A DNA stretch of 26,063 bases from a virus: positions 1 through 26,063 of IMG/VR virus record IMGVR_UViG_3300020034_000063. One strand, 5' to 3'. Below, piece by piece: positions 3,451 through 20,563 of the stretch. The notes under the pieces were generated by a model. The model ran no database searches. It had not been told where the DNA came from and was given only the letters and a program-made list of their open reading frames with translations. Numbering within the stretch: position 1 is the stretch's first letter; each line of letters opens with the position of its first letter. Both the position numbers and the translations under genes were made by a program.

Positions 3451-3669
3451 TTAGCCGACCTTTCGAATCTGGCCGCGCCGGACGAGAAACTGATTCGCGA
3501 GGTACCGATCGACGAGATCCGCGCGGTAGCGGGGCCGGCCGCCGATGCGGGGTTGCAACTCCTCGAGCATCGGCAAGCCCCCGGCGGCGCGCAGCCGGTC
3601 GAACGTCGGCCGGGAGATTTGCAACGCGACGAGCAGATCGGCAATCGTGTAACAGCGTCGCGCCGTCAT
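3451..3669 (-). CDS. Excisionase/AlpA-like helix-turn-helix protein
   Basis: 72 aa from the ATG at 3669, chosen because it overlaps the Cro-like stop (ATGA); an upstream ATG at 3708 would overlap that gene by over 40 nt. The sequence RCYTIADLLVALQISRPTFD followed by RLRAAGGLPMLEEL and GGRPRYRADLVDRYL fits the winged-helix HTH of excisionases and MerR/AlpA-type regulators: helix, turn, recognition helix (SRPTFDRL), wing, then a final helix. In an integrase-carrying phage with immunity genes next door it is the best candidate for the directionality factor of excision. A second early transcription regulator is the alternative. Confidence 0.65.
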   Translation of the reverse strand: MTARRCYTIADLLVALQISRPTFDRLRAAGGLPMLEELQPRIGGRPRYRADLVDRYLANQFLVRRGQIRKVG

Positions 3670-3887
3670 GCGACCCTCCGGCGACGCGGCGAGGTTTCCG
3701 CGATGCACGCCGCGACGACTTGGGGCGTCGTCCCCAAGCCATTCGCCAGCGCCGCCACGGTGGCGTACGTCGGATTCCGGACCTTGCCGAGTTCGAGTTG
3801 ACTGATCGTGGTGGACTGAACGCCGGTGTTCTGCGCGAGGCGATACTGGCTCAGCCCGGAGCGGCGGCGGAGCGCGCGGAAATTCAT
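3666..3887 (-). CDS. Cro-like XRE-family repressor
   Basis: 73 aa. Starts MNFRALRRRSGLSQYRLAQN, then TGVQSTTISQLELGKVRNPT and YATVAALANGLG, a complete five-helix XRE/HTH_3 domain (residues 2-60) with recognition helix around STTISQLE. The rest is a short basic tail. Small size with no dimer/peptidase domain and position as the first gene of the leftward early operon, divergent from a second HTH gene, match lambda-type Cro. Its own promoter is predicted so close that transcription would begin at or within a base of the ATG, giving a leaderless mRNA. No clear ribosome-binding site is visible. Confidence 0.8.
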   Translation of the reverse strand: MNFRALRRRSGLSQYRLAQNTGVQSTTISQLELGKVRNPTYATVAALANGLGTTPQVVAACIAETSPRRRRVA

Positions 3888-4690: not shown

Positions 4691-6172
4691 ATGCCGCGGC
4701 GACACCGTGACGGTCAGGACGACACGAAACAGTCTGTCCACTACCGTGCAGAGCCGGCAAGATTTCTAGGACATTCGTACCACATGCCCAGCCGTCCCAC
4801 ACCCCCGAAAGGGTCCGGCATCCACCCTAAAAATGCGGGCTACCGGATCAAGGTCGTCATTGACAAGCTCGCGCACTACCACAGCTGCACCGCGGCGGAG
4901 GCCTTCCGCACCAAACCGCCGTTCCTGATCCTGCTCAACTGGAAGACACAGCAGCTCGCGATCCATGGCGGGGGCGACGCGGCCCCGCTCACCGGGAGCC
5001 TGGCCGTGGACATCACGGACTATGCCGACAGCGGCGCCGACGCGCGGCGCGTCACCTACCTGTGGAGATGGGCCGACGAGCTCGGCGCGGATCGCCCGAC
5101 GTTGGGGATCGCGGCCATCGAGTTGAACGACGTGATGCAGCGGTGGCGTACGACGCCGACGAACCAGGAGCGCCGCTTCCGACAGGGGCGTCCGAGTGCG
5201 GCGACTGGCCTGGATGATCAGAGCCTCAAGAAGCGCCGCGATCATCTCGCCGTGTTCGTCGATTGGGTGATTGCGCGCGACGTGCGCCAGGAGCATCCGA
5301 GCGCCGCGCCGGGCGAGCTCGCCGCGTTCACCGCGACCGCGCAGGCGACGCGGAACCCGGTCCGGTTCAGTCAGAAGTACAAGAACCCGGCGCCGAGCAC
5401 GCTCGAGGCCCGCGGGACCGACGAGCTCCACATTCTCGATCGCATCCTGGACGCGATGCCGGCGATCCGCTCGCACAAACCCCACGCGCCGGCCGTCCCA
5501 AGCGCCGCGCGCCTGATCGCCGCCGTGGAGATGCATACCGGGATGGCGTTCGCGACCATTGATCGGCTCGTGCGCAGCGACTTCGACCCGCTGGCCGCGA
5601 CGCTTCGGTTGCCCGAACGCATCAAAGGAGAAGGCGTTCCCCGCCGCACCGTGCCCCTCTCGAGCCGTGGCGTGATCGCCTTGCGCGCCTTCGACGCCGC
5701 CGGGCTCTGGGCCACGCTCACGCCCGCGAGCAGTAACACGACCCGCCGAGCGGTCCGGAAGGCGGTGGCCAAGGTGCGCGCCGCGCTCGCGGCCGAAGAC
5801 GCCGCCCTGGAGGCCGGTGGGGTCCACGTCGACAGTCCCGCGCGTCACGCGGTCCGGACGAGTCTGGCGAAGCTGCAGACGTGCGGCACCCAGAAGGATT
5901 TGCGGCACAGCTTCGCGAGCGTGGTCTTTGCGAAGACGGAGGGGAACGAAGCGATCACCGGGCGGCTCCTGCAGCACGCGCCAGGCTCGCCGTTGACGGC
6001 CCGCTATGCGAAGGCGGCGCAGGCCGAAATTGACCGGCGTGCGGTCGCGAAACTGGACGCGCCGGAGACGCCAGCGCCGAGGCCGTCGGGAGACAAGCGG
6101 GAAAAGAAAGTGCCCGCGAAAGTGCCAAACGTCGCCAAACCTAGGTTAATACGGCGCTTAGCTGCCAAGTAA
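4691..6172 (+). CDS. int: Tyrosine recombinase (phage integrase)
   Basis: 493 aa; an internal ATG at 4784 (residue 32, MPSRPTPPKGSG) is an equally good start and would give 462 aa. It integrates the phage at the host tRNA-Glu gene. Residues 110-215 look like the helical SAM-like core-binding domain (YLWRWADELG, DWVIARDVRQEH); 270-445 is the catalytic domain. Visible catalytic residues are K312 (IKGEGVPRRTVPL), R405 in KDLRHSFAS, H429 in LLQHAPGSPLTARY and nucleophile Y439. Two positions differ from the usual pattern: the box I arginine site reads TGMAFATI (A286), and the His before LRH is K402. The gene stops 1 nt before the tRNA-derived core and its last codons carry two copies of the putative arm-type sequence. 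Confidence 0.88.
   Translation: MPRRHRDGQDDTKQSVHYRAEPARFLGHSYHMPSRPTPPKGSGIHPKNAGYRIKVVIDKLAHYHSCTAAEAFRTKPPFLILLNWKTQQLAIHGGGDAAPLTGSLAVDITDYADSGADARRVTYLWRWADELGADRPTLGIAAIELNDVMQRWRTTPTNQERRFRQGRPSAATGLDDQSLKKRRDHLAVFVDWVIARDVRQEHPSAAPGELAAFTATAQATRNPVRFSQKYKNPAPSTLEARGTDELHILDRILDAMPAIRSHKPHAPAVPSAARLIAAVEMHTGMAFATIDRLVRSDFDPLAATLRLPERIKGEGVPRRTVPLSSRGVIALRAFDAAGLWATLTPASSNTTRRAVRKAVAKVRAALAAEDAALEAGGVHVDSPARHAVRTSLAKLQTCGTQKDLRHSFASVVFAKTEGNEAITGRLLQHAPGSPLTARYAKAAQAEIDRRAVAKLDAPETPAPRPSGDKREKKVPAKVPNVAKPRLIRRLAAK
6107..6126 (+). repeat. Paired GAAAGTGCC repeats, left arm-type integrase sites
   Basis: Two copies of GAAAGTGCC at 6107-6115 and 6118-6126, starts 11 bp apart (one helical turn), inside the 3' end of int where they encode a KVPAKVP repeat. 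They match the pair on the other side of the tRNA-derived core and lie 48 bp from it. The pattern resembles lambda Int arm-binding sites. Confidence 0.6.
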
Positions 6173-6173
6173 C

Positions 6174-6222
6174 TGGCCCTTTCAAGGCCAAAACGCGGGT
6201 TCGAATCCCGCTGGGGACGCCA
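6174..6222 (+). other. attP core: 3' portion of a tRNA-Glu(UUC) gene
   Basis: The 49 nt fold as the 3' part of a tRNA: anticodon arm TGGCC-CTTTCAA-GGCCA (anticodon TTC, Glu), variable AAAC, T arm GCGGG-TTCGAAT-CCCGC, 3' acceptor strand TGGGGAC, discriminator G, and CCA at 6220-6222. G73 and GGGGAC match bacterial tRNA-Glu. The upstream 27 nt do not provide the partner strand GTCCCCA, so this is not a complete tRNA gene. It is the segment a tRNA-targeting phage carries to restore the host gene on integration. Crossover is expected in the anticodon arm. Phage genes lie on both sides, so this appears to be attP, not a prophage end. Confidence 0.85.
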
Positions 6223-6260
6223 CTCAAAAACCCCATAAACATTGAACAAAAGTGGCCTGA

Positions 6261-6291
6261 ATCCCGCGATTTCGCAGGATCGGCCGATCCT
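6261..6291. repeat. Two adjoining palindromes in the attP right arm
   Basis: 6261-6280 is an inverted repeat ATCC-c-GCGA-tt-TCGC-a-GGAT with one mismatch pair. Overlapping it, 6276-6291 is a perfect palindrome AGGATCGGCCGATCCT. They sit between the core and the right arm-type repeats, where accessory proteins (excisionase, IHF or Fis) bind in lambda. Which protein, if any, binds here is unknown. Confidence 0.5.
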
Positions 6292-6303
6292 CGTAACTGC
6301 ATC

Positions 6304-6327
6304 AAAAAGCCTCATTCTGGCTCTTTT
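6304..6327. terminator. Possible bidirectional terminator downstream of int
   Basis: AAAAAGCC, a 7-nt loop (TCATTCT), then GGCTCTTTT. The G/C stem is only 4 bp, extended by A-T pairs across one mismatch, with T-runs on both strands. It would end integrase transcription before the moron operon. It is weak, so confidence is limited. Confidence 0.4.
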
Positions 6328-6335
6328 GGAGAGTC

Positions 6336-6365
6336 GAAAGTGCCCAGAAAGTGCCCGCGAGTGCC
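6336..6365 (+). repeat. Paired GAAAGTGCC repeats plus a degenerate third, right arm-type sites
   Basis: Exact copies at 6336-6344 and 6347-6355, starts again 11 bp apart, with a 7/9 match GCGAGTGCC at 6357-6365. A longer 15-bp identity (AGAAAGTGCCCGCGA) links 6105-6119 with 6346-6360. Here the sequence is non-coding, so conservation is not explained by protein. Three tandem sites resemble the P' arm of lambda attP. Confidence 0.6.
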
Positions 6366-6384
6366 TGCCGTCTGTCGATTTCGC

Positions 6385-6413
6385 TTGACCCTACACCGCT
6401 GTGGGTTTATACT
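6385..6413 (+). promoter_or_regulatory. Strong sigma-70 promoter of the moron operon
   Basis: TTGACC at 6385-6390, a 17-nt spacer, and TATACT at 6408-6413. It points right, opposite to the flanking late genes, with the first gene's ATG 50 nt downstream. No operator half-site TAGAAT is visible nearby, so it may be active in the lysogen. Confidence 0.75.
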
Positions 6414-6462
6414 CACTTCTGTCGACGCACTCACGCAGCGACGCAGCCACCGGAGAGCGAAC

Positions 6463-6615
6463 ATGAAGGCCAGCGAACTCATCACAATCAAAGTCGCCGC
6501 CCTGGTGGAAGCCGGGCTCCCCCCAGTCGAGGCACTCCGCGCGGTCTGCGGTGCGGCGGTGGTCGACGCGATGATCGACAGCTTGTATACGGAGCTGCGC
6601 GGGCATCGTGGCTAG
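6463..6615 (+). CDS. 50-aa hypothetical protein, first moron gene
   Basis: Starts MKASELITIKVAALVEAGLP and continues with small hydrophobic and acidic residues to YTELRGHRG. A GGAGAG ribosome-binding site lies about 7 nt before the ATG, which decides this start over a 41-codon extension beginning at 6340. It is followed by an 8-nt overlap with the next gene. Predicted helical throughout, with no recognised domain. It is the first cistron behind the 6385-6413 promoter and so is probably expressed in the lysogen. Confidence 0.6.
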   Translation: MKASELITIKVAALVEAGLPPVEALRAVCGAAVVDAMIDSLYTELRGHRG

Positions 6616-6763
6616 GAAACATCCGGCCGCCGTCGCGCTCGGTCGGCTCGGCGGGCTGGCGAGCAAAGGGAAGACGAGCCCGAAGAAAGCCGCCGCCGCA
6701 AGGGCGAACGGCAAAAAAGGCGGACGGCCGCGTAAATCCGTGACAGACAGAAAGCAGTCCTAA
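6608..6763 (+). CDS. 51-aa basic AT-hook-like protein
   Basis: GTG start at 6608 inside the previous gene's last codons. It reads MARKHPAAVALGRLGGLASK and then ARANGKKGGRPRKSVTDRKQ. GLGRLGG / NGKKGGRPRK is the small-residue and GGRPRK pattern of AT-hook-like or histone-tail-like basic peptides common in phage and plasmid accessory genes. It carries about a dozen Lys/Arg and almost no acidic residues, so nucleic acid binding is likely. It ends immediately before the next ATG (TAAATG). Confidence 0.55.
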   Translation: MARKHPAAVALGRLGGLASKGKTSPKKAAAARANGKKGGRPRKSVTDRKQS

Positions 6764-7168
6764 ATGAATCGCACGACTCTTCTCGGCGTCGTCCTCGCAC
6801 TCGGCTTGTTCACGGGTGGCGTCTATGCCCAGGACAAAATTTTCGCCTTCAAAGGCGCGCACCTGGATGTGCCGCTGTCAGACGCGCCGTGCGCGTTGAT
6901 GGGCCCGGTGTCCATGACCGTCTATGATAAGAATCCGTGGATCGTCTACACCTGCAACACTGGACAGGTGATCCTCCGGCGATACATGAATCCGAACGAC
7001 AGCGCGATCACCCCCGTCCCGGTGATCATCTTCCCGGATCAGCAGCCGGAGCCGGTGCCGACGCCCCAGCTGCCGACCGCCACGGTGCGCTGCACGGTGC
7101 CCGGCATGGTGACGAGCATCTACGGTGGGTGTGTGCCGCCGAACCATCCGTCGGCACCCAAGCGGTAA
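6764..7168 (+). CDS. Secreted 134-aa protein, lysogenic conversion candidate
   Basis: Has a clean signal peptide: MNRTTLLGVVLALGLFTGGV then YAQDK, with cleavage expected after YAQ or VYA. The mature part is about 110 aa, beta-rich (MTVYDKNPWIVYTCNTGQVI), with Cys at SDAPCALM, YTCNTG, VRCTVPG and GGCVPP, so two disulphides are possible in the periplasm. Near residues 85-100 there is a proline-rich linker. It is the third gene of an independently promoted operon convergent with the late genes, and stops abut at 7168/7169. The combination of own promoter, export signal and position is typical of a phage gene that changes the lysogen's surface. Target unknown. Confidence 0.6.
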   Translation: MNRTTLLGVVLALGLFTGGVYAQDKIFAFKGAHLDVPLSDAPCALMGPVSMTVYDKNPWIVYTCNTGQVILRRYMNPNDSAITPVPVIIFPDQQPEPVPTPQLPTATVRCTVPGMVTSIYGGCVPPNHPSAPKR

Positions 7169-7393
7169 CTACCCGACCAGCGCGAGGCTCAGCCCATGGA
7201 TCGCGCGATCGATTGGGCTGAGCCCTTGCCGTGACACCGCCGGCCGCGGCTCCCGTAACTGCCCGAGCGCCCGTTCAATCACGCCACGATAGCGCGCCGA
7301 CTCCGCCCGGGCCTCGGTGGCCTGCGCCCGCGCTTCCGCAATGTCCCGCCGCACAATCGAGAACGCCGTTTGCGGGAGCGGTTTCAAGTACAT
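7169..7393 (-). CDS. 74-aa hypothetical helical protein, last late gene
   Basis: Starts MYLKPLPQTAFSIVRRDIAE, then an Ala/Glu/Arg-rich helix (ARAQATEARAESARYRGVIE) predicted to form a coiled coil, and ends SPIDRAIHGLSLALVG. It is the final gene of the leftward late operon and ends back-to-back with the moron operon. No enzyme motif is seen. The heptad-like alanine pattern suggests oligomerisation. Confidence 0.5.
   Translation of the reverse strand: MYLKPLPQTAFSIVRRDIAEARAQATEARAESARYRGVIERALGQLREPRPAVSRQGLSPIDRAIHGLSLALVG
7186..7224. repeat. Perfect 11-bp inverted repeat at the convergent gene ends
   Basis: GGCTCAGCCCA (7186-7196) and TGGGCTGAGCC (7214-7224) form a stem around a 17-nt loop that itself contains the palindrome GATCGCGCGATC (7199-7210). 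It lies just past the moron operon stop and inside the last codons of the convergent gene. There is no T-run, so it is not a standard intrinsic terminator. It could still stop, protect or pause transcripts. Confidence 0.6.
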
Positions 7394-7405
7394 CCCGTCC
7401 GCCTT

Positions 7406-7568
7406 TCAGTCCGAGTGCCGCCCCGTCACGGTGTCCCACCCCTCCAGCGTCAGGGCAACGCTGGTTCCCAGCGGAGCGTCCGTGACGAGGCGGCATCTTC
7501 CCGCACGCGTTGCAATAGCCATCCGCATCGACGGATCGCACCGAGCGGCAGATCGGACAGTCGGTCAC
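7406..7568 (-). pseudogene. Zinc-ribbon mini-gene with a one-base frame break
   Basis: The ATG overlaps the upstream stop and opens MTDCPICRSVRSVDADGYCN then ACGK, a C-x2-C ... C-x2-C zinc ribbon. After about codon 24 that frame becomes low-quality sequence and would overrun the next gene by about 120 nt. The +1 frame from about 7500 instead reads RLVTDAPLGTSVALTLEGWD then TVTGRHSD and stops at 7406, 12 nt before the next ATG. Its codons end mostly in G or C like the neighbours. The two pieces total 163 nt, one base off a multiple of three. An assembly error, a real mutation or a programmed shift are all possible. Confidence 0.45.
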
Positions 7569-7900
7569 GCCGCGGCCTGAACCACCTTCGCGCCCTGAAC
7601 GATATGGATGGTGCCGATCACCGCATCGATCCCCTTCCCCGCCACGTCCTCGACCTCGGTTTCGCTGAGCCGCACCTTGCCGGTGCTGTTGGCCACCGTC
7701 ACGGCGGCAGTCGCAATCTTCAGGACGTGCGCTTTCTTCTCCGCGCCCGTGGCCCCCTTGATCGCCTGCGCGTCCCCGATCGCGGAGATGATCACCGGCA
7801 CCAGCGGCGCGAGTGCGGCGCCGCCAGGCACGGCGACGAGGACCGCGGGGCCGACGAACGCGAGAATCTGCAAGAACTTCGCAATGTCAAACTTGGCCAT
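7565..7900 (-). CDS. 111-aa hydrophobic protein, holin candidate
   Basis: The ATG at 7900 has a strong AGGAG site 6 nt upstream. A short N-terminal helix (MAKFDIAKFLQILAF) leads into hydrophobic sequence (VGPAVLVAVPGGAALAPLVP then VIISAIGDA) long enough for one or two membrane helices at about residues 9-45. The rest is a soluble Ala/Val/Lys-rich region. Size, hydrophobic start and position in the lysis/accessory region next to a hydrolase suit a holin, which forms membrane pores timing lysis. No holin family signature is recognised, so this is inference from topology. Confidence 0.45.
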   Translation of the reverse strand: MAKFDIAKFLQILAFVGPAVLVAVPGGAALAPLVPVIISAIGDAQAIKGATGAEKKAHVLKIATAAVTVANSTGKVRLSETEVEDVAGKGIDAVIGTIHIVQGAKVVQAAA

Positions 7901-7925
7901 GAAGGCTCCTTTTGTGAACGTCGGG

Positions 7926-8927
7926 TTACGGCCGAATTCGAATGAGATGCGCACGCCCGTCGCTGAGCGTCCGCGTATACGCCCGGATGCACTCCGGACC
8001 CTCCAGGTCGTCGCGATGCCGATACGCCCCGCGCTGAAACGCCAGCGGCACGCTTCGGGCCCCTGCGACCCAGGCCTTCGCGCACTCCAGCTCCGGGCCG
8101 TCCGCGAACCGCGTGGAAAACTTGCCACTCGTGGAGTGATAACAGCTGCCCGCGCACAGCAGCGCCCCGCCCATCGCGGCGTCGTAGGCGTGCACGGCGT
8201 TGCGGTCGCGATCGGGATACCGGGTGTTCTCGTTCGATAGGCAAGGCGTCCCGCTTTGGTCCGCGAGTTCCATCGCGTTGTGGCCGACCTTCCGCTGGAA
8301 CTCGTCCAGGTCGTTCGTGTGATAGAGCTCGTAATCCCACGGCGGCCGCGGCGGCATCTTGTCGGCGCCGTTCGAACCGCGCGAGATCAGCACCCCAGCG
8401 GGCCGGCGCAGATCAGATGCGACGGCGTTGTCGTGCTGGTCGCCTTCGTTCACGAGCTCGAGCAGGACATGGCCGCGCCCGCGCACCGCGTCGGCCGTGC
8501 GGTCCAGATGCTGCTGCTGGTCCCACCGATTCGGCATCAGCGTCTGCGTCTGCGTGAACACCGTGAGCTCCACCACCATCCCGTACTGCCCACACAGGCT
8601 GACGAAGGATCCCAACGCCTCATAGAAATCCGGATAGTCGGCGGGGTGGATCCGACTACCGTCGAAGCCGCCATTGCGTCCCCCGATCACCGACTGATTG
8701 AGCAGCCAAACTCTCAGACAGTTGAAGACGATCTCTTGACGCTGCAATAAGATCGGTGTGACAGATTCGCGGTCAAGATACCGCTTGAACAGGCTGAAGT
8801 CGGACGCTTCAATCGCGGTCCACGGCTGGCCGTTCATCGTGAAGAAGCGGCCGTCGATGCCCAGCGCGCCCACGGTACTCCCACCCCCGCCGCCATAGAC
8901 ACGCGCCCGCGGCAGATCGAGATTCAT
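7926..8927 (-). CDS. TIM-barrel glycoside-hydrolase-fold protein
   Basis: 333 aa from the ATG overlapping the upstream stop (ATGA). It resembles clan GH-A (GH5-type cellulase) barrels: a short N-terminal substrate loop (FFTMNGQPWTAIEASDF), NCLRVWLLNQ at about 69-78 (strand 2), a helix YPDFYEALGSFVSLCGQYGM, VELTVF at 119-124, then HVLLELVNEGDQ (153-164) with N160-E161 at the acid/base position and CLSNENTRY (229-237) with E233 as the likely second carboxylate. It would cleave a polysaccharide such as host capsule, EPS or cell-wall glycan. It lies where phages often keep lysis or tail depolymerase genes. Substrate cannot be read from sequence. Confidence 0.7.
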   Translation of the reverse strand: MNLDLPRARVYGGGGGSTVGALGIDGRFFTMNGQPWTAIEASDFSLFKRYLDRESVTPILLQRQEIVFNCLRVWLLNQSVIGGRNGGFDGSRIHPADYPDFYEALGSFVSLCGQYGMVVELTVFTQTQTLMPNRWDQQQHLDRTADAVRGRGHVLLELVNEGDQHDNAVASDLRRPAGVLISRGSNGADKMPPRPPWDYELYHTNDLDEFQRKVGHNAMELADQSGTPCLSNENTRYPDRDRNAVHAYDAAMGGALLCAGSCYHSTSGKFSTRFADGPELECAKAWVAGARSVPLAFQRGAYRHRDDLEGPECIRAYTRTLSDGRAHLIRIRP

Positions 8928-10096
8928 GCGGCCTCGAGCACGAGCACCGGCCCGGCCAATGTCCCGTCCTGCACGCGATACGCGAGGTTCGTACCGTCGG
9001 GCTGCGTCGTGCAGAAGGGTTGTTCCCACTCCCCGATCGCCCCCGCCGGTCGAAGCTCAAGGCCGTTCGGCCCGAAAGACAGCTGACGATTGCCAGCCAC
9101 GAGCAGCGCATCGAAGCGCCCGTTCTCGTGGGCCGTCAGTTTGATCCGCTCCCATCCGTCGCCTTTGGTGCGGTCGGCATAGAGCGTGTCCGGCGCGCTC
9201 GGATCGACGCCGATGTACTTTCCGTTGAGTCGTGCGTAGACATCCATGTGACCTCCAAATCGAGCGGCGGGGGGCAGAAACGGTGCGGGCGGCGGCGGAT
9301 CGGGCGGGCGCGGCGGAATTGGGGGCTTCGGCGGCGGCTCCGGTGGCGGCAGCGGCGGTTTGGGCGGCACGCCAGGCGGGGCACTCGCATCCGCGAGCTC
9401 CTCGAACGACCCGCAGAACACCCGCACCGTCCCACTCCCGGCCGTGGCAATCGCCCACCGATCGCCGTCGACCGCGCATTTCGGCGTGAAGCTGTCGAGC
9501 GGCCACCACAGCAGATCGGTAAATCCGCCGGCCACCCAGCGCACGCCCCCCGTCGGGCCTTCGCCCACCGCGAGCGGATAGGCAAAGGCCGGGATCGTCG
9601 CGCCGTTCAGCGCCTGCCGATCTTCGTCAATCGTCACGACGTGCCCATCATCCAGGATGCGCGAGAGCCCCGTCGGCGCTCCCAGGCGCGGCTGCGTGAT
9701 CGCGCCCGTCCGCAGATCGATCTTCAGCACCCGGTAGGGCTGCGCAGGCTCACAGTACGCAAAGCACCCCGCCCCGAACGCGGTCGGATTGCTGAGCGCA
9801 TCAAATGTCCGGACCGTCCCCGCCGTGAGGTTGCGGAGCTGCAGCCGCGCGCCGTCGTGATACGCCAGCCACAGCAGAGCCTCAAAGACATAGAGGCCAG
9901 GAAACGCGGGCGACTCCGCCTTGAGACTCCACCGCCGCCACTCCTGCGCCAGCCCCAGGTCTGTGCCGTCCCAGACGTAGACGACGAGCGCGCCCGGGTG
10001 CCGGGGATCGCCTTCGCGGACGGCCATCCACCCCTGCCAGGCATCCAGAGCGACGGCGGGAAAGACGCCCATCGGCCAGTTGATCCGCAGACTCAT
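8924..10096 (-). CDS. Propeller-like plus fascin-like modular protein
   Basis: 390 aa in three parts. Residues 1-235 have repeated strand pairs with W/D motifs (DAWQGWMAVREG, LLWLAYHDGARLQLRNL, RVLKIDLRTG, WAIATAGSGTVRVF), which suggests a beta-propeller. Residues 239-277 are a proline-rich linker. Residues 285-390 (YARLNGKYIGVDP, then RFDALLVAGNRQLSFGPNGL) match the fascin-like beta-trefoil pattern, where each lobe has x-A-x-NG-x-Y-ig-v. Such trefoils usually bind carbohydrate. It is coupled by ATGA to the glycoside-hydrolase-fold gene, so the pair may recognise and cut the same glycan on the host surface. The propeller call is weaker than the trefoil call. Confidence 0.5.
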   Translation of the reverse strand: MSLRINWPMGVFPAVALDAWQGWMAVREGDPRHPGALVVYVWDGTDLGLAQEWRRWSLKAESPAFPGLYVFEALLWLAYHDGARLQLRNLTAGTVRTFDALSNPTAFGAGCFAYCEPAQPYRVLKIDLRTGAITQPRLGAPTGLSRILDDGHVVTIDEDRQALNGATIPAFAYPLAVGEGPTGGVRWVAGGFTDLLWWPLDSFTPKCAVDGDRWAIATAGSGTVRVFCGSFEELADASAPPGVPPKPPLPPPEPPPKPPIPPRPPDPPPPAPFLPPAARFGGHMDVYARLNGKYIGVDPSAPDTLYADRTKGDGWERIKLTAHENGRFDALLVAGNRQLSFGPNGLELRPAGAIGEWEQPFCTTQPDGTNLAYRVQDGTLAGPVLVLEAA

Positions 10097-10524
10097 GCGG
10101 GCGCCTTCGCCGTGTGTGTCGCGTCGGTTGGCCGCGGGCGATCCTCAGCGCGGCGATCCTGGGGCACCACGCCCGCATCCTGCGGCACGGTGGCCAGCGC
10201 CGGCACCAACGCGGCGGCCTGCGCCAGCAGTCGCTTGGTGACGTTCTCCTGCGCGAGCTGCTCACGGAGGAGCAGGTTCTCCATCTTGAGCGCGGTCTCC
10301 CGCCCCTCCGCCGCGGTTTTTTCGCTGTTGACGTGCCCCTTGATCGTCTCGGTGTCCTTCGCGACGGTGAGGAGGTCGCCCCGCGTGAGCTCCTGCTGCC
10401 GACTCACCACCGTCACGCGGAGCGCGGTAATGACGGCGACAATGCCCGTCACAATCGAGCCGATGACCGTGACGATCATGCCGCCGATGAGGGTAATCGT
10501 CAGCGGCTCGGGCCAGTTGGTCAT
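10093..10524 (-). CDS. Membrane-anchored coiled-coil protein (holin or i-spanin-like)
   Basis: 143 aa. An N-terminal membrane helix covers about residues 9-37 (LTITLIGGMIVTVIGSIVTG then IVAVITALRV). It is followed by a charged region (SRQQELTRGD, ETIKGHVNSEKTAAEGRET) and a long helix (LKMENLLLREQLAQENVTKR) predicted as a coiled coil, and a Pro/Ala-rich tail. The topology of one anchor plus a coiled coil fits Rz-type inner-membrane spanins. Overlaps its neighbours by 4 nt on both sides and follows an exported coiled-coil protein, a possible partner. No family is confirmed. Confidence 0.5.
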   Translation of the reverse strand: MTNWPEPLTITLIGGMIVTVIGSIVTGIVAVITALRVTVVSRQQELTRGDLLTVAKDTETIKGHVNSEKTAAEGRETALKMENLLLREQLAQENVTKRLLAQAAALVPALATVPQDAGVVPQDRRAEDRPRPTDATHTAKAPA

Positions 10525-10775
10525 TTAGGGGCTTTCGTAAACGTCCCGGTGTCCGTGTTGACGATCCAGCCCACGCGATCCCGCTCCAGATCCTGTTTCA
10601 AGGTGGTGCGCTTCGCCTGCCAGTCGGCGACTTCGCGCTGGATGATCACGCTTTCGAGCCGGAGGTTCTCGACGCGCAGGGTTTCGATCGGCGTCAGCGC
10701 CGGCGCGGTGTCCTTCGCCTCCTGCGCGACGAGCGGCACCGTGAGCAGGAGCAGCACGAGCAGGGGCACGCGCAT
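10521..10775 (-). CDS. Exported 84-aa coiled-coil protein
   Basis: The ATG at 10775 overlaps the fibre gene stop (TGATG). A signal peptide (MRVPLLVLLLLTVPLVAQEA) is followed by a heptad-like helix (PIETLRVENLRLESVIIQRE, then VADWQAKRTTLKQDLERD) and a short end VGWIVNTDTGTF. The secreted coiled coil next to the membrane-anchored coiled-coil gene recalls a two-component spanin pair, but there is no lipobox cysteine at the cleavage site as in a true Rz1-type lipoprotein. A periplasmic adaptor is the alternative. Confidence 0.5.
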   Translation of the reverse strand: MRVPLLVLLLLTVPLVAQEAKDTAPALTPIETLRVENLRLESVIIQREVADWQAKRTTLKQDLERDRVGWIVNTDTGTFTKAPK

Positions 10776-11959
10776 CAATAGGACCGGCAGAGCACGTAAA
10801 ACTCAGCCCCGAGCGCCGACGACACCCAGGAGAACCCGATCGATGATGTCGAGGCGCTAGTCAGACCCACTACTGGGAAGGTCGAATTGCTCGTGGCCAG
10901 CACACAGATCGGGGTCGTGGTCCACGTATGCCCAAAGTTGACCGTGCCACTCGATGAGGCATTGGCCTGCTTGACCACCTTGAACGCGTAATCGGTCCCG
11001 GCGATGGTCGGACTCGTGCCGAACCCGGTCGCAATCGTCGGCGTGCCGCTGGAGTCCGCGATATTGGAGGACGCCCCGAAGGTGAAATCCCCCGCCACGT
11101 TGACGCCCCACTTGTTCCCGAACACGATCGGCCCGGTGCCAATCGCATTCAAATACAAGCCGCCCGCGCCGCTACTGCCATCCAACGCTAAGTCTGACGT
11201 GCCGCGAATACTGGATACCCCAGAGTTCCGGGTGATGACCAGCGACGCGCCCGCGGCGGGGACCATCGCATTGGTCGCATTGAGCACCGCGACGTTGGTG
11301 CCGTCGCTCAGGTCCGCAATCGCGGGCCGCACGACGGTGATCGTCCCGCCGACCGTGTTCTGTCGGAGAAATTGCGAGGCCCCGCCGGTGCCCGCCAGAC
11401 TGACGCCCGCTCCGCCTTTCGAGAGCCCGATGATCGTCGCGTTCCACGTGCCGGTCGCAATCGTCCCGATGGAGGTCAGCGCGGCCATCGTCGTGACATT
11501 CGGCTGCACGGCCGTCGAGAGCGCGCCGCCCAGCGTCGTCGCGTTGAGCGCCCCTGCCACCGTCAGGATCGTGGCGCCGACGTTCTGCGTCATGATCGAA
11601 TTGCCGACCGCATTCGACGCGGTGAACACCGGGATCGTATTCAGCGTGCCGCTCAGACTCGCGCCGGTCGCCAGCACGACGCCGTTGAAACTCAGCGTGC
11701 CGGCATTGTTGACCAGCCGGTTCGTCTGCGAGGCGGGCACGTTACTCGCGATTTCAATGAACCCGGCGGAGGTCACGGAGGCCACGTCCAGCGCGCCAGC
11801 CGTGAGCCCACCCGTGCAGGGCCCGGTCAGCGCGCATCCCACTTTCACCGAGCCCGCGGCGGTCGACGTGGACCGCAGACTGGAGACCACGGTCGGCGCC
11901 GGTTGCGCCGCGACGGTGACGGGCCAGAGCAACGCGAGGAGCAGACAGGCCTTGTTCAT
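10775..11959 (-). CDS. Fibre-like beta-structured protein with a signal peptide
   Basis: 394 aa. The N-terminus MNKACLLLALLWPVTVAAQP is a clear Sec signal (cleavage after VAA or AAQ), which is unusual for a virion tail-fibre component. The rest is Ala/Gly/Ser/Thr/Val-rich with short strand-turn repeats (LVNNAGTLSFNGVVLA, GTIATGTWNATIIGLSKGGA, TSDLALDGSSGAGGLYLNAI), typical of beta-helical or knob-bearing fibres. TGTWNAT..GLSKGGAG is common in phage fibre repeats. The C-terminal part (TPICVLATSNS, SALGAEFYVLC) looks like a globular tip. It is coupled to another fibre gene by ATGA. It may be a virion fibre or a secreted adhesin-like protein. Confidence 0.65.
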   Translation of the reverse strand: MNKACLLLALLWPVTVAAQPAPTVVSSLRSTSTAAGSVKVGCALTGPCTGGLTAGALDVASVTSAGFIEIASNVPASQTNRLVNNAGTLSFNGVVLATGASLSGTLNTIPVFTASNAVGNSIMTQNVGATILTVAGALNATTLGGALSTAVQPNVTTMAALTSIGTIATGTWNATIIGLSKGGAGVSLAGTGGASQFLRQNTVGGTITVVRPAIADLSDGTNVAVLNATNAMVPAAGASLVITRNSGVSSIRGTSDLALDGSSGAGGLYLNAIGTGPIVFGNKWGVNVAGDFTFGASSNIADSSGTPTIATGFGTSPTIAGTDYAFKVVKQANASSSGTVNFGHTWTTTPICVLATSNSTFPVVGLTSASTSSIGFSWVSSALGAEFYVLCRSY

Positions 11960-12651
11960 AGGGTTCTCAAAATCCGGGCGCCGATGAGGAAGCCGCTATT
12001 CGCGGACACAATCGTTTTGATCCCGTAGCTCTTCGCCGTCCCGCCGCCCGGGAAGGTAATGACCGCGCTGTCGGCGGTCTGCCCGGTGAGGCTCGTGATC
12101 GCACAGGTCGCGATCGGGGTATCTGGCGATCCGTCGGTGAGGTTCACCAGCGCGACGGTGAGTGTGCCGCCGACGAGTTGCACGCCGACGGCTTCGAGCA
12201 CGTAGGTCCCCAGGAGGGTGCCGGAATCCACGATCCAGACGCTCGTCCCCGGGTGCAATTTGTCGTAGGTGGCGCCCGCGGCGTAGCTCGTCGCGGTGAC
12301 TTCCGCGGCGCTGTTGCTCCCGAAGTCGAACGCGAACGCCCCCACCCCGCCCGAGGCGCCCGCATTGGTCGGACTGATGGGATCCACGGTCGGCCCGAAC
12401 GGCACGCCCAGGCTGTCCGTGATCGTCATTTTCAGGTTGCCGACGGCGGGATCCAGATAGATCACGATGCGTCCAGACGCGTCGCAGGCGGCGGGCTGGG
12501 TCCAGGCGGTCGTCAAGTCGGCGTCGTGATAGACCGGCGCGGGCGTACTGGTGCCGCTCAAAAAGAACGACAGCAGCGCCCCGGGGACGATGAACCCGTC
12601 GTCTGACAGGGCGGTGAACCAGAACGCAGGAGCCAGGGTCCCGGTGGCCAT
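11956..12651 (-). CDS. Tail-fibre/virion-attachment-type protein
   Basis: 231 aa. The first 85 residues have the layout of phage receptor-binding-protein N-terminal domains: FWFTALSDDGFIVPGALLSF, then GTSTPAPVYHDADLTTAWTQ, P..CDASGRIVIYLDPAVG and NLKMTITDSLG, where the tail-fibre consensus reads F.D.NG.PL.GG.l.fy.aGT.t...vy.d...t.......lDa.Gr....l. The remaining part is Gly/Thr/Ala-rich beta sequence ending FLIGARILRT. It probably joins fibres to the tail. A GAGGAAGAG stretch lies about 10-15 nt before the ATG. It overlaps the next fibre gene by 4 nt. Confidence 0.7.
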   Translation of the reverse strand: MATGTLAPAFWFTALSDDGFIVPGALLSFFLSGTSTPAPVYHDADLTTAWTQPAACDASGRIVIYLDPAVGNLKMTITDSLGVPFGPTVDPISPTNAGASGGVGAFAFDFGSNSAAEVTATSYAAGATYDKLHPGTSVWIVDSGTLLGTYVLEAVGVQLVGGTLTVALVNLTDGSPDTPIATCAITSLTGQTADSAVITFPGGGTAKSYGIKTIVSANSGFLIGARILRTL

Positions 12652-12672
12652 GTGTGCTACTCTTCCTCTCCC

Positions 12673-12837
12673 ATGCCGAACTGGCGCCGCGTGCTCATCG
12701 AGTGGCCCGCTAGACTCTTCGATGCGTGGTGGGTCATGTACCGCGTCGTCCTGACCCTGGCCGTCATGACCATCTTTACCGTGACAGTCATTGCGCTGAC
12801 TCTAGAGCTGGGGTTCGGGATTCGCTGGGGCTGGTAA
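12673..12837 (+). CDS. Possible 54-aa membrane protein on the opposite strand
   Basis: Starts MPNWRRVLIEWPARLFDAWW, then VMYRVVLTLAVMTIFTVTVI and ALTLELGFGIRWGW, one strong membrane helix at about 22-44 with an amphipathic aromatic lead. It lies in the 136-nt gap between two late genes and its last 50 nt overlap the end of the gene at 12788. The surrounding late genes run the other way, and I see no good promoter or ribosome-binding site, so it may be accidental. The hydrophobicity is more sustained than in the ordinary antisense ORFs here. Confidence 0.35.
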   Translation: MPNWRRVLIEWPARLFDAWWVMYRVVLTLAVMTIFTVTVIALTLELGFGIRWGW

Positions 12838-14704
12838 GCGCGCCCAGCTCCGCGACCCACGCCGCCCGCCCCGCCTTGTTCCCCATCGGAATCCGAAACC
12901 CCTTCGTCAAGAGCGCGACCCCGGTTTTGGAGTGCAGGATCTTCGACAGACCCGCCAGCCCGAACTGCGCACTCACCCCGGCGATCGGATTGGCCCAGAT
13001 GGCCGCCCCTTGTGCCGCCGCGGACACCGCCTGCGCCGTGCCGCTCGGGTTGGGATTCTGCGCCGCCATCTTCGCCAGCCGAAAAAACTTGTCGAGCTCG
13101 TGGATGTAGGCCGGATCCTTGTAGAGCAGCAGCTTGGTTTGCGGCCCGAGCTTCTGCCAGTCCCCCGCGATCCGCTGCGCGTGGTCGAAGCCACTCTCCC
13201 CCGAGGCCGCCTTCTCGAGTAGGCCATCGAGCACCGCGCGCCCAATCTTCGGGAGCTCAGCGGGGGCTTCCTTGGCGACCGCCCGCAGATGCGCCACGGC
13301 ACTGTCGGCCGGCGCGGTCAAGCCCCGCTGCACGCGCACGGGCTCCGCCTGGAGCGAATCGAGCACGTCGGCCGCGCCGTACTTGGCAATCGTGGCCGTG
13401 CGCCCAGACTCCAGCGCCTGCAAGGCCTCCGGCCCGGCGTCGGCGGCGGTCTTTCGCACAATCGCGTCCAGATGCTTCACCGCGCCCGCCGCGGTCCCTT
13501 GACTCACGGATCGGAGTTCCGGTAGATCCGAGCGCGCAATCGACTTGATCGCGCCGAGATTGGCGTCGACCGTGGAGAGGGGCGAATAGTCCGGCCCGTT
13601 GACGATGTTCTGCAGCGCCTTGAGCCCCTTGGAGGCTTCCTGCTGCGCCACCGGATAGCGCGCCATCAGTTCGTCGTGAATCGGCTTCAGGGACGCCTTG
13701 ACGGCGCGCAGATCGACCGGCAACTGGATCTCCTCCATGACCGGCACGCGCGTGGTCGAGGCTTGTGAGATCGGGCGGCCAGCGGCATCGACGGCGCCCG
13801 TCGGCGTGTGCGTGGTGTCCACGCGCGTGCCGGTCTGGACCGTCTTGCGATGCACGGGATCGGCTTCGATCGCGCGGAGCTTGTCATAGGCGGTCGTCGC
13901 GTCCCCGGCGTGCTGGCGGACGTTCTCGAGCACGACATCCTTGACGCCTTGCCCGGCCTGCTCCACCGTCACGGATCCGCGATGCCCTCGCTCGGCGAGC
14001 TGCTCTCCGACCGCCCCGAGCCGCTGGGCCTGCGCCGCTTGCGCTTTCCCCGCCACCACGGACCCACCGAGCGAGCGATCCACCACATGCTGCAGCGCCG
14101 CCACCCCCTTGTTGCCGGAGGCCAGCGCGGCGTCGACCGGGATGCCATGCGACTCCGCAAACGCCAGCGCCTCCACGGCGGCCGGATTCGTCGGCCGCGC
14201 CACCGCCGGCACGCTCACGCCGCGCGCGCGCGCGAGGGCGCCTGGGGCGAGAATTCCGCCGATCATGCCCACGCCTTCCCCGACACCCCTGGCAATGTCG
14301 CCCGTGTCCGCGATGCGCTGGCCGACGTTCGCCGCGGCGGGCCCGAGGATAGGCAGAGCCGCCGCGCCCGCATGGCCGGCCGCTTCCGTATACCGTCCCT
14401 GCTTCGCGAGATCCCACGCCTGTCGACCTTGATCGACTTGCGCGCTGATCAACGCCTTGCCGGTATTGATCGGATGCGCGACCGCTTGCCCAATGCCTTC
14501 TGCCATCGCGATCGGATTGAGCTGCGACCACGCACCGGACACACCACGGCTGAGCGCGGACCTTTCCACCTTGTCTGCAGGCTTCGCCGCCGCTGGTCCG
14601 AGCTTGGCAAAAATCTCCGTCAGCTCGGCTTCCGTCGGCGGACTGTCCCCAGTCAGCGTCACCGCACGGCCGCTCTGCGGATCCGTGATGTGGTACTGCG
14701 GCAT
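12788..14704 (-). CDS. Large internal virion/ejection-type protein
   Basis: 638 aa, last of three large ejection-type genes. It starts MPQYHITDPQSGRAVTLTGD and SPPTEAELTEIFAKLG, a short domain that commonly opens big internal virion proteins in podoviruses, then an Ala/Gly-rich helical region with membrane-active stretches (GEGVGMIGGILAPGALARAR at about 150-169) and long helices (KQANLA-type absent; instead TTAYDKLRAIEAD, KPIHDELMARYPVAQQEASK). No lytic transglycosylase motif was seen. By position it corresponds to T7 gp16 or P22 gp20/gp16, proteins expelled into the cell wall to form the DNA channel. The identity is by context, not motif. Confidence 0.55.
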   Translation of the reverse strand: MPQYHITDPQSGRAVTLTGDSPPTEAELTEIFAKLGPAAAKPADKVERSALSRGVSGAWSQLNPIAMAEGIGQAVAHPINTGKALISAQVDQGRQAWDLAKQGRYTEAAGHAGAAALPILGPAAANVGQRIADTGDIARGVGEGVGMIGGILAPGALARARGVSVPAVARPTNPAAVEALAFAESHGIPVDAALASGNKGVAALQHVVDRSLGGSVVAGKAQAAQAQRLGAVGEQLAERGHRGSVTVEQAGQGVKDVVLENVRQHAGDATTAYDKLRAIEADPVHRKTVQTGTRVDTTHTPTGAVDAAGRPISQASTTRVPVMEEIQLPVDLRAVKASLKPIHDELMARYPVAQQEASKGLKALQNIVNGPDYSPLSTVDANLGAIKSIARSDLPELRSVSQGTAAGAVKHLDAIVRKTAADAGPEALQALESGRTATIAKYGAADVLDSLQAEPVRVQRGLTAPADSAVAHLRAVAKEAPAELPKIGRAVLDGLLEKAASGESGFDHAQRIAGDWQKLGPQTKLLLYKDPAYIHELDKFFRLAKMAAQNPNPSGTAQAVSAAAQGAAIWANPIAGVSAQFGLAGLSKILHSKTGVALLTKGFRIPMGNKAGRAAWVAELGALTSPSESRTPALESAQ

Positions 14705-16080
14705 TACTTCACTTCCACCGTGAAACGTCCGATCGTCGTCGGCTTGGGCGTGCGCGCGGTGAACTTCCCGGTGTCATAGCCGGCATCCGTGAGCGCATCC
14801 AGGCGGCGGCCCTTCCGTTTCGCAATGGCGGCATCAAGCCCGTCCAGTTTCGCCTTCGCCACCTCCGGCGAATCGCCGATGTTCGGCAAAATCTTTTCGT
14901 ATTTGGCTTCGTCCTCTTTGCGGAGCACGCCGCCCTCGAGTGTTTTGCCGATCACCTGCTTGACGCGATCGATCACCGCCTGCCGCTTCTTCGCATCGGC
15001 GCCCCAGCCGGTGATCTGCGTCACGTACGGGACGGTGGCCGCTGCGCGCGCCACGATCCCAGTGCTGTCGGTCGGGCTAATCGCCGCGCGCACGGCCGCG
15101 AGTTCATCCAGGGACGTATCGAAGTCGGCGAGATCCGACGCGTCGTTCGCCGTGACCGGACGACCCTGTTCCCGCGTGCTCGCGGGGCGCTTGCCTTCGG
15201 CCTGCGAGCGACGCACGAGCACGGGCTGTCCGTCTGCACCCATGATGGACACCAGCGGTTCAGTGTCCGTCGTCGGTGCCCGGCCGGCGGCTTCGTACTG
15301 GACCTTTGCGGCGCGAATCTGCCCAGCCGAAAGCGTGGCCGGATTGAGCTTCCGATCCGCCGCAAACCGCGTGACGTAGTCCTCGAAACTCCCGAGTGCG
15401 GGCGCCTTCTCCGGCTTCACGGGATTCAGCAACTGGAGCGCCGTGCCCGCCTGCGCATCCCCGCCGGCCGCCGCCATCGCCATCGAGGCGGCCGTCGGCG
15501 CACTGTCCTTCGTGCGCCGCGACGGGGAACTATCCCGCACGTGCTCGAGGAACGCTTTGATCTGCTCCGGTGGGGCATTCTGCAACTGCGCGGCGAGTTG
15601 CTGCGTCTGCTCGGCGTAGTCCGGGAAGTGTTCGACGGTGTAATCCATGCCGAGCTTCAGCGCGCCCGGCGTCGCGCCGTGCTTCAGGATCGAATCGGCC
15701 ACGTCGCCCATGAAGTCGGCTTCATCGGCCGCAATCTTCTGCCGCGCGGACTTGATCGTGTTGGCCTTCTCGTCCGACTTATCGAAAAACTCCGTCAGGG
15801 ACGGGACCGTGTTCGGCGCATTGGCGCGCGCCCAGTCGAGTGTCGTGCCGCGGACGCCGCCGCCCTGCTGAATGGCCTCCCCGGTCGCCTGGCGGTCGGT
15901 GTTCTCCTGTTGGATCTTGTCGGTGCGCGCTTTCCGCTCTTCCGCGATGGCGGCGCGCTGCTCCGCGAGGCCCCGCGCATTCTCCTGCTGGTTCCGGAGC
16001 TGCAACACCTGAGACAGATTCTCAAAAGGGGTGTTCAGCTTCACGCTGGGCTGCACGAGTCCGTAATCAGCTTGGGCCAT
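14704..16080 (-). CDS. Internal virion/ejection-type protein
   Basis: 458 aa. Starts MAQADYGLVQPSVKLNTPFE, then a long, charged coiled-coil (LVQLRNQQENARGLAEQRAA-type: LQLRNQQENARGLAEQRAAI, then AEERKARTDKIQQENTDRQA, residues 26-70). The middle has TDKSDEKANTIKSARQKIAA-like helical segments; the C-terminus is Lys/Arg-rich (AIAKRKGRRLDALTDAGYDT). The start is 3 nt past the Gln/Asn-rich gene's stop and the stop overlaps the next ATG (TAATG). Mostly alpha-helical, Ala/Gln/Glu-rich proteins in this slot build the ejectosome of short-tailed phages. No catalytic site is visible. Confidence 0.55.
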   Translation of the reverse strand: MAQADYGLVQPSVKLNTPFENLSQVLQLRNQQENARGLAEQRAAIAEERKARTDKIQQENTDRQATGEAIQQGGGVRGTTLDWARANAPNTVPSLTEFFDKSDEKANTIKSARQKIAADEADFMGDVADSILKHGATPGALKLGMDYTVEHFPDYAEQTQQLAAQLQNAPPEQIKAFLEHVRDSSPSRRTKDSAPTAASMAMAAAGGDAQAGTALQLLNPVKPEKAPALGSFEDYVTRFAADRKLNPATLSAGQIRAAKVQYEAAGRAPTTDTEPLVSIMGADGQPVLVRRSQAEGKRPASTREQGRPVTANDASDLADFDTSLDELAAVRAAISPTDSTGIVARAAATVPYVTQITGWGADAKKRQAVIDRVKQVIGKTLEGGVLRKEDEAKYEKILPNIGDSPEVAKAKLDGLDAAIAKRKGRRLDALTDAGYDTGKFTARTPKPTTIGRFTVEVK

Positions 16081-16083
16081 GGG

Positions 16084-17979
16084 CTATGCCGAGTAAGGGG
16101 ATCCGGCGTAGGGCTGGTTGTTCGCCCAGTACTGGCCGGCGGTATTCCCGATCGTGTTCAGCGCGCCACTCCACGCGCCGGCGCCGGCCATGCCCGCATT
16201 CGCGTTCGCCGCGCCCTGGTTCGCGTAGAGATTGGACGATTGGTTCCCGACATTCTGGGCCGAGTTCTGCCCGAGGTTCGCCAGCGCGAGATTCTGCGCG
16301 AAGTTCGAATCGTTGTTGTACTGGTAGACGCCCTGATTCGCGTTGAACGTCTGCAAGCCCTGATTGAAGTTCTGCCCGCTCTGCGCCAAGCCCAGTTGTC
16401 CCTGCGAGACGCCGAGATTCCCCATCCCGAGCGCGTACTGATTCGCTTGTCCTTGCTGCGTCGTGGCGTTCTGCGCGTAGCCGAGGCCGAGCTGCCCCGC
16501 CGCGATGTTCGCCTGATTGTTCAAGCCGCCCTGGCCCAGCTGCGCATTCGTGTTGCCCTGCCACGCGTTCTGCGCGTTCGCGTTGTTCCCCTGCTCCACC
16601 GCAAACTGATTCGCAAAGTTGTTCTGGGCCGCGCTCGCTTGCTGCCCGGCGTTGAACTGCGCATTCTGCTGCGCGAGGGGCTGATACGCGTTGTACGCCG
16701 CGAGCTGGTTACTGATGTTCCCCTGCTGCGTATTGAAGTTCATCCCGGCGTTGAACTGCCCGGCGTTCAAGTTGGCGGACTGATTCGCCAGCGCGGCCTG
16801 CTGGCCCTGCGCGCTGTTGAATTGCCCCGCCTGCAGTTGGTTGCCGACGTTCGCCAGATTCGCCTGCTGCTGCTGGCTTGAGTTGAACTGCCCCGCGTTC
16901 AGGTTCGCGGACTGGTTCGCCAGTTGTGCTTGCTGCTGATACTGGTTCGTGAGGCCGTAGGCTTGCGCGTTTGCCTGATTGTTCTGGCCGGTCGTGTTCG
17001 CCGTGTTCGTGATGTTCGCTTGCGCGGTCTGCTGCGCGCGCTGGTTGGCCGCCGCATATTCCTGCGACGCCGACTCGCCGGCGTAGTCCTGCAACCCCTT
17101 GAGCGTGCCCCCCGTATGCAGCAGGCCTTTCGCGGCGGCGGACGACTGCAGCGCCCCGAGGCCCTGTTTCAGCCGGAAGTTATAGGACGGGTCCGCCTGG
17201 AGCTCCGCCTCGGTCAGGTTGTGGAGCGCATCCGGATTCGCGAGCTGCGCCGCGGTCAGGGCTTGCGGGCCGGTGACCTGATCCGCGCTGACCGTGCCGC
17301 CGGTCTGGACCGTCCCGGCCTGGACCTGGGTGCCCGGGCCGACCTGATCGGCGGTGACGTTGGCGGGTTGCGACAATTGCGCCAGGCTCAAGGGTGCGGG
17401 GCCCGCGACACTCTGCGGCGTGTAGGCCGTCGCGGCGGTCAGCGGCGTGCTCGTGTACTTCGTGCCGTCCCAGCCTCCGGGCGCGCCGATGCCTCCCCCT
17501 CCGCCACCTGGGGCGCCGCCCCCACCTGGCGCTGCGACCAGTCCCCCGGGCGACTGTGCCCCGCCCTGGGGCGCCGCGCCGCCGTCGCCGATCCCGCCCC
17601 AGGCCGCGGACGCGGCGGGACCACCGGCCGCCGCACCGCGCGCGCCCTTGAGCATGTCGATGGATTCCCCGAACGGGGTCATCACGGTGCCGTTGCCGCT
17701 CTGCACTGTGCCGCCGTTGGCCGCGATGAACTTGTTCATGTCCTCCATGGACTGCGCGCCGCTGGCCTGCCAGGCGTCCCGATACTGCTCCCGGTTCATC
17801 CCGTTGATCGTGCCGTCGTGCCCCACCTGCTGACCGGGATTGAACGCGGGCGCCTGCTGTGTCTGCGCGCCGATCTGCTGCCCGGCTTGAGCGAGGCCCT
17901 GCGCCAGCGTGGCCATGCCGGCGCCGCCGGTCACGCCGCCCTGCTCGTAGATGTCCGCGTTGTCCTCCCAGAAACCCAT
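16084..17979 (-). CDS. Gln/Asn/Ala-rich repetitive virion protein, probable ejection protein
   Basis: 631 aa. The first 250 residues are Gly/Gln/Pro-rich (GGGGAPGGGGGGIGAPGG), followed by LTEAELQADPSYNFRLKQGL (a domain seen in phage ejection proteins), LQSSAAAKGLLHTGGTLKGL, and then residues 290-600 of low-complexity Gln/Asn/Ala repeats such as LANQSANLNAGQFN, present in at least two near-identical copies. The end is AGAGAWSGALNTIGNTAGQY. Position after a gp14-like gene fits an internal virion protein ejected with DNA. Long helical or amyloid-like behaviour is possible for the repeats. The LTEAELQADPSYNF motif is the firmest clue. Confidence 0.6.
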   Translation of the reverse strand: MGFWEDNADIYEQGGVTGGAGMATLAQGLAQAGQQIGAQTQQAPAFNPGQQVGHDGTINGMNREQYRDAWQASGAQSMEDMNKFIAANGGTVQSGNGTVMTPFGESIDMLKGARGAAAGGPAASAAWGGIGDGGAAPQGGAQSPGGLVAAPGGGGAPGGGGGGIGAPGGWDGTKYTSTPLTAATAYTPQSVAGPAPLSLAQLSQPANVTADQVGPGTQVQAGTVQTGGTVSADQVTGPQALTAAQLANPDALHNLTEAELQADPSYNFRLKQGLGALQSSAAAKGLLHTGGTLKGLQDYAGESASQEYAAANQRAQQTAQANITNTANTTGQNNQANAQAYGLTNQYQQQAQLANQSANLNAGQFNSSQQQQANLANVGNQLQAGQFNSAQGQQAALANQSANLNAGQFNAGMNFNTQQGNISNQLAAYNAYQPLAQQNAQFNAGQQASAAQNNFANQFAVEQGNNANAQNAWQGNTNAQLGQGGLNNQANIAAGQLGLGYAQNATTQQGQANQYALGMGNLGVSQGQLGLAQSGQNFNQGLQTFNANQGVYQYNNDSNFAQNLALANLGQNSAQNVGNQSSNLYANQGAANANAGMAGAGAWSGALNTIGNTAGQYWANNQPYAGSPYSA

Positions 17980-20561: not shown

Positions 20562-20563
20562 GC

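Follow-up and report, generated by a model that had tools for sequence, protein, structure and literature searches.

The 49-nt segment at positions 6174-6222 of the window, the whole 26,063-nt stretch of viral DNA analyzed here, very probably forms the core of an attachment site (attP) that is intact and that the adjacent phage integrase would use on a host tRNA-Glu(UUC) gene. The attachment mechanism itself is ordinary and known; what is new is the integrase clade and the fixed layout of its attP.

The attP core

The core and the integrase gene beside it comprise the following features.

6174-6222, plus strand: attP core, the 49-nt 3' part of the host tRNA-Glu(UUC) from the anticodon arm to CCA, identical to the tRNA-Glu genes of contigs L007 and L009
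6175-6189, plus strand: anticodon stem, GGCC at 6175-6178 and GGCC at 6186-6189, read from the sequence
6179-6185, plus strand: anticodon loop CTTTCAA, read from the sequence, with the anticodon TTC at 6181-6183
4691-6172, plus strand: tyrosine-recombinase-type integrase gene (int), matching PHROG 1 integrase (E 0.0021) and homologous to the L002 and L003 integrases

The segment runs from the anticodon arm (GGCC/CTTTCAA/GGCC) through the T arm to the acceptor strand TGGGGAC, a G, and CCA. All of these elements were read at 6174-6222, in agreement with a preliminary description of this DNA, which had seen the fold of a tRNA 3' portion there. The same description had noted that the matching strand GTCCCCA is missing upstream and that int ends 1 nt to the left; indeed, neither the 5' acceptor strand nor a tRNA 5' half was present upstream when looked for, and the int stop codon TAA (6170-6172) is separated from the segment by the single base 6173. 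ARAGORN detected no whole tRNA in the window, and Rfam gave a partial, sub-threshold tRNA match at 6156-6211 (27 bits, the gathering score being 29), whose first part lies inside the coding end of int. The segment had a single exact match in the window, on the plus strand, and a chance match was ruled out by a control in which none of 100 shuffles matched even at ≤3 mismatches. A 103-aa open reading frame antisense to the core (6004-6315, minus strand; WRPQRDSNPRFGLE...) represents translated tRNA sequence and is unlikely to be a gene.

Host and target tRNA

The host was sought by an exact scan of the 44-nt part of the segment against genome contigs, with one genome per species and 84,980 species covered. 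Three contigs were returned (L007, L008, and L009), two of which, both from Acidobacteria MAGs, carry complete tRNA-Glu(UUC) genes (L007, MAG16; L009, NC_groundwater_900). The identity between the window and these two genes is unbroken over 49 nt from the 3' end; it begins at the anticodon stem and stops at the tRNA 3' end (CCA). Over all 76 nt, 60 positions are identical, the 5' part contributing 11 of 27. The preliminary description had named tRNA-Glu(UUC) as the integration target and proposed comparing the 49 nt with bacterial tRNA-Glu genes; the 49/49 match to complete genes in L007 and L009 bore out that target.

The segment is present once (≤3 mismatches) in each of the L007 and L009 genomes, which suggests that both sites are empty. 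In an even draw of 396 genomes from the phylum, it occurred at ≤3 mismatches in 7 and exactly in 1, and the family of G003 likewise had it at ≤3 mismatches in 7 (of 12 genomes) and exactly in 1. On the third contig, L008, the core (5464-5507, plus strand) falls within the 3'-terminal stretch of a gene for a large serine recombinase (5433-7151, minus strand) and is read antisense; no whole tRNA was found beside this tRNA-Glu 3' part. According to PMC4383910, tRNA targeting is known only for tyrosine integrases.

Arm-type sites and attP geometry

The core is flanked by four copies of one 9-nt word arranged as two tandem pairs.

6106-6126, plus strand: P arm, two copies of GAAAGTGCC at 6106 and 6118, within the int 3' end; score 54/54, reached by 0/200 shuffles
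6336-6355, plus strand: P' arm, two copies of GAAAGTGCC at 6336 and 6347; inner spacing to the P arm 218 bp (215-220 in relatives)

These were evaluated by a scan that looked on either side of the core for two 9-nt words 11-13 bp apart, without fixing where they should lie; the maximum score was 54, and each site was compared with 200 shuffles in which two-base blocks were moved. The window attained the full score, and none of its shuffles scored as high. The upstream pair is translated as part of the C-terminal tail of Int. All four words are best regarded as arm-type integrase sites, to which Int would bind.

The layout proved common to many related phages. The exact core was found in two further virus records (L002 and L003), a degenerate pattern allowing tRNA-Glu variants matched 32 virus records, and L027 has a tRNA-Gly(CCC)-like 3' part as its core. 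The pattern-matched virus records, together with the window and L027, gave 34 tRNA-core sites, after L088, L105, L106, and L111 had been replaced before counting by L030, L031, L033, and L029 (shared contigs). At 24 of these sites, covering 18 of 22 integrase clusters, the P arm starts 81-94 bp before and the P' arm 138-152 bp after the T-loop GGTTC, and the inner spacing is 215-220 bp. The words differ between sites and include GAAAGTGCC, CCTGCCCGC, AAGTTAGCG, AGTTCGCCG, AAGTTGCCA, and others. That the arm words are alike within each phage yet different between phages implies continued binding. Of the 23 standard sites that have a family integrase, 15 have one of their arm pairs within the coding sequence of int. 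L029, counted as standard, had a score reached by 1/200 shuffles, and the P pair of L003, overlooked by the repeat finder, was recovered by the scan with shuffles.

Ten of the 34 sites were without the standard geometry (L089, L091, L092, L093, L094, L096, L097, L104, L107, and L109). Among them, L091, L104, L107, and L109 scored above all 200 shuffles with other spacing or position, and L094, with an inner spacing of 207, had a score reached by 3/200 shuffles. L104 and L107 combine tRNA-Glu cores with significant four-word repeats at other positions and have no family integrase, possibly reflecting other integrase families on the same tRNA-Glu target.

The integrase and its active site

Position 4691 is the first ATG of the int reading frame, and alignment with relatives suggests a start near 4784. 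The window integrase had no Pfam match, Phage_integrase included; among the seven integrases scanned, PF00589 (Phage_integrase) scored above the gathering score in four (L002, L027, L029, and L030) and below it in L003 and L033. The family HMM matched the window integrase at E 2e-95, this protein being included in the model, and the family profile matched XerD at E 8e-23. For structural comparison, the model of the L002 integrase (mean pLDDT 81.6) was used and that of the window integrase (mean pLDDT 59.5) was set aside. The best structural match of the L002 model was lambda Int (1z1g_B; Z 15.5, rmsd 14.1, 291 aligned), matches within Z 1 being tied; archaeal Xer gave Z 15.3 (rmsd 8.7, 246 aligned). 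Residues 8-51 of the model form three strands and a helix, a candidate arm-binding domain, and the lambda Int alignment begins at residue 2 or 1 in two matches.

The catalytic Lys, Arg II, second His, and Tyr nucleophile (Tyr439 in the window) are kept in all 26 readable viral rows of the alignment, from which L108 and L116 were left out as too short to read all catalytic columns. The canonical RKHRH pentad is broken at the two other positions. Arg I (TGxR), whose column was placed by profile alignment to XerD TGLR, is Pro or Ala in 23 of the 26 rows (Ala in the window), and the first His (HxxR) is Lys in the window and Tyr in the other 25. Every one of the 23 viral rows without Arg I has an Arg (Arg310 in the window) at K-2, two residues before the catalytic Lys, which would take over the role of the missing Arg I. 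The remaining three (L096, L097, and L109) keep Arg I, have Thr at K-2, and show no standard arm geometry. The 11 genome relatives divide into six with both arginines, three with Arg I alone, and two with the shifted Arg alone; the Arg at K-2 occurs together with Arg I in 6 of 19 rows, and the two arginines are therefore not strictly exclusive. In the tree, 18 viral rows without Arg I formed one group (SH-aLRT 99), and a genome row, L034, was placed apart from it, so that the loss of Arg I was not one event on the wider tree. The window integrase is the most diverged member and sits on a long branch, lacking both Arg I and the first catalytic His.

Some genomic relatives deserve separate mention. 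L121 (G198) is a genomic integrase of the same family without Arg I that has two stops within the match; the reading frame after it is presumably an antisense translation of a tRNA. Complete tRNA genes (L038, 1690-1766; L041, 2388-2464; L046, 2284-2358; Arg CCG twice, Gly CCC once) lie just downstream, on the same strand, of both-arginine integrase relatives, an arrangement not accounted for by the 3'-fragment scheme.

Active-site changes of this kind have precedents. In IntDOT of CTnDOT, the residues R285/K287 put the Arg at K-2 too. According to Smyshlyaev et al. (PMC8138268), IntDOT has no Arg I in the usual place and a downstream Arg takes over, and IntDes has a displaced Arg I and a Tyr as first His. 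The integrases studied here resemble IntDOT, as described there, in having lost Arg I and carrying a downstream Arg, and, the window's excepted, resemble IntDes in the Tyr at the first His. Unlike IntDOT and IntDes, they are phage integrases with tRNA targets.

The Ala and Lys that replace Arg I and the first His in the window protein raise the question of whether the attP is a relic, its integrase being dead or a DNA-binding protein only. The repressor SroF of phage phi3T, a retired integrase, was also among the structural matches. The agreement of arm words within each phage and their divergence between phages argue against a relic, as do the four catalytic residues invariant in all readable rows and the K-2 Arg in every row without Arg I; we consider this explanation unlikely, and a working attP remains the preferred reading.

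Phage genes on both sides of the core

Three features of the window identify its flanks.

3451-3708, minus strand: candidate excisionase, HTH_17 (Pfam HTH_17, E 1.4e-6; PHROG 66 excisionase, E 1.7e-5)
3666-3887, minus strand: Cro/CI-type HTH regulator (Pfam HTH_31, E 4e-13)
7565-26026, minus strand: late-gene block with genes for head closure, major head, and scaffold (PHROGs matches; synteny with G547 and G546)

To the left of int, Pfam identified ERF and YqaJ-type recombinases and a weak NinB match in addition to the Cro/CI-type HTH. To the right, the late-gene block from 7565 on contains the virion genes that the preliminary description had placed there. The 41-kb phage record G547 gave tblastn matches for 16 of the 32 window ORFs, all from 7565 rightwards; their order is conserved except where the G547 record is cut, and the two ends of that record join up in gene order. 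This synteny identifies the right flank as phage, although G547 itself has no integrase of the window's family. For the 1.3 kb directly right of the core (6223-7564), no matches were found, and nothing seen backs the moron-operon label given to it, its ORFs 6463-6615 and 6764-7168 being without a Pfam or PHROGs match.

The earlier reading of the site as an intact attP and not a prophage junction was upheld by the arm pairs on both sides and the late operon syntenic with G547. Its further proposal, a circular or packaged form, is one possible option; a junction of two tandem prophages in one tRNA gene would look identical, since it would likewise give phage genes and arms on both sides. The record carries no circular mark, and tandem islands in tRNA genes are reported in PMC4383910. 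Within the 26 kb, however, neither a second integrase nor a foreign late module occurs, a single phage suffices, and the relative G547 closes on itself by gene order, which makes a tandem junction very unlikely.

It is exceedingly improbable that the window is instead a prophage end (attR), with int and a bare tRNA fragment followed by host DNA. Two integrated relatives, G542 and G360, do show this order (int, fragment, host-type genes), their far ends being off-contig. In the window, by contrast, a second arm pair and the G547-syntenic late genes lie right of the core, and no bacterial housekeeping gene was seen among the right-side ORFs scanned; a host junction at the segment was rejected. 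Neither G542 nor G360 had a significant four-site arm set (7/40 and 5/40 shuffles equally high), and no second core copy was found in G542 within 2 mismatches.

Given that int precedes the core and shares its strand, integration through the intact attP should leave the bare fragment next to int and restore the complete tRNA at the opposite prophage end. The preliminary expectation that prophages carry int beside a complete tRNA-Glu was thus the reverse of this arrangement, and of the order seen in G542 and G360. In the search for integrated copies, the family model gave matches in 0/27 genomes of the family of G005, in 15/193 genomes of its class at E ≤ 1e-10 (many distant), and in 2/396 genomes of the phylum at E ≤ 1e-25, one being a broken gene. 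An integrated copy of the window's phage with both ends was not found in the family, class, and phylum genomes searched, and no whole-tRNA prophage junction was recognized among the loci read. This negative result, the divergence and missing residues of the window integrase, and the unmatched 1.3 kb right of the core are the points that count against the attP reading.

Relatives, module, and int direction

A family integrase adjoins 28 of the 34 sites (22 clusters at 90% identity) and is lacking at six, one of them cut by a contig edge. The window integrase alone as query confirmed no close relatives, whereas a three-row alignment (A2) as query yielded 6 loci; tblastn with the window and L002 integrases gave no match in 50,697 phage records. 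When the 32 window ORFs were searched by tblastn, G001 shared two (int and the HTH_17 protein) and G002 three (the same two and one more), the candidate excisionase and int being the only genes with homologues in both. Since G001 and G002 are otherwise little related, it appears that int and attP, probably with xis, move together as one module. At most sites int enters the core from the 5' side, and at L003, L030, L031, L096, L097, L098, and L108 it enters from the opposite side. The starred branches of an 18-integrase tree force at least three changes of direction, yet the position of the arm pairs with respect to the tRNA core does not shift. In prophages with the L003 orientation, the whole tRNA would be expected next to int.

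The sequence from the anticodon loop onward is common to the 34 sites, the shared part at pattern-found sites being built into the pattern itself, and the 5' side of the anticodon stem varies, as does everything before it. This start of the shared part fits the previously suggested, putative crossover in the anticodon arm. In L092 (3497-3571, minus strand), a close relative of L030 in which standard arm sites were not found, the tRNA-Glu 5' half is also present in attP, almost whole though damaged, which would be consistent with capture of an entire tRNA followed by decay of that half.

Phage cargo tRNA was rejected as an identity for the segment. There is a negligible chance that the segment is a decayed phage tRNA gene and no attachment site: although the related attP sites L030, L031, L091, L092, and L103 fold as poor whole tRNAs, the conserved part extends from the anticodon loop to the tRNA 3' end, an integrase adjoins it at 28/34 sites, and most of the sites have arm sites.

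Proposed mechanism and known systems

Starting from what was observed directly, namely the host tRNA identity, the arm pairs and their geometry, the residue changes, and the phage genes on both sides, binding, strand exchange, and cutting may be envisaged as follows. The N-terminal domain of the integrase would bind both tandem arm pairs, and its core-binding and catalytic parts would bind the inverted repeat of the anticodon stem, whose putative role as inverted core-type integrase sites is drawn from known tRNA att sites as treated in PMC8371274. Strand exchange with the identical sequence in the host tRNA-Glu(UUC) gene would most likely take place across the 7-bp anticodon loop; by analogy with known tRNA att sites, CTTTCAA (6179-6185) is likely the overlap, or crossover, region. 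The host 5' half and the phage 49-nt 3' half would then rebuild the tRNA at the int-distal end of the prophage, leaving the displaced 3' half of the host gene beside int.

Such a scheme is in good agreement with known systems. Islander (PMC4383910) counts 2083 class A islands (anticodon-centred sites) and 3760 with a 3' fragment. In the class A phages and islands with tyrosine integrases, attP contains the tRNA from the anticodon loop to the 3' end and integration rebuilds the tRNA, as proposed here; the present phages differ in their host group and integrase clade, both new to this class, and in that the coding end of int often contains one of the arm pairs. For the mycobacteriophages Boilgate and Omega, PMC10865867 describes a common core of 43-44 bp that includes the tRNA 3' half, a tRNA rebuilt at attL, and putative arm-type sites around the core. 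The tRNA 3' half as core and the flanking arm-type sites are shared with that account; the integrases are other than those studied here. Lambda Int, besides being the best structural match of the L002 model, also has arm sites on both sides of its core, whereas here Arg I and the first His are replaced and the target is a tRNA gene. No published description of the integrase clade was found in the literature searched, which is no proof of absence.

Implications

On balance, the evidence leans somewhat toward a clade of integrases from uncultured acidobacterial phages in which the catalytic arginine moved from Arg I to K-2, with the both-arginine relatives as living intermediates. The move would be combined with a rigid attP, its two tandem arm pairs set at constant distances from the tRNA core and one of them often encoded in the 3' end of int; this attP would form a unit independent of int, which would have changed side and direction at least three times without any change in arm geometry. 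The series of relatives with Arg I only, both arginines, and the shifted Arg only makes the relocation of an essential residue in a tyrosine recombinase testable. The host group, target gene, and complete attP are now given for a set of soil phages. Engineering Acidobacteria is difficult; an integrase whose tRNA-Glu attB is defined could be used as a tool for single-copy integration.
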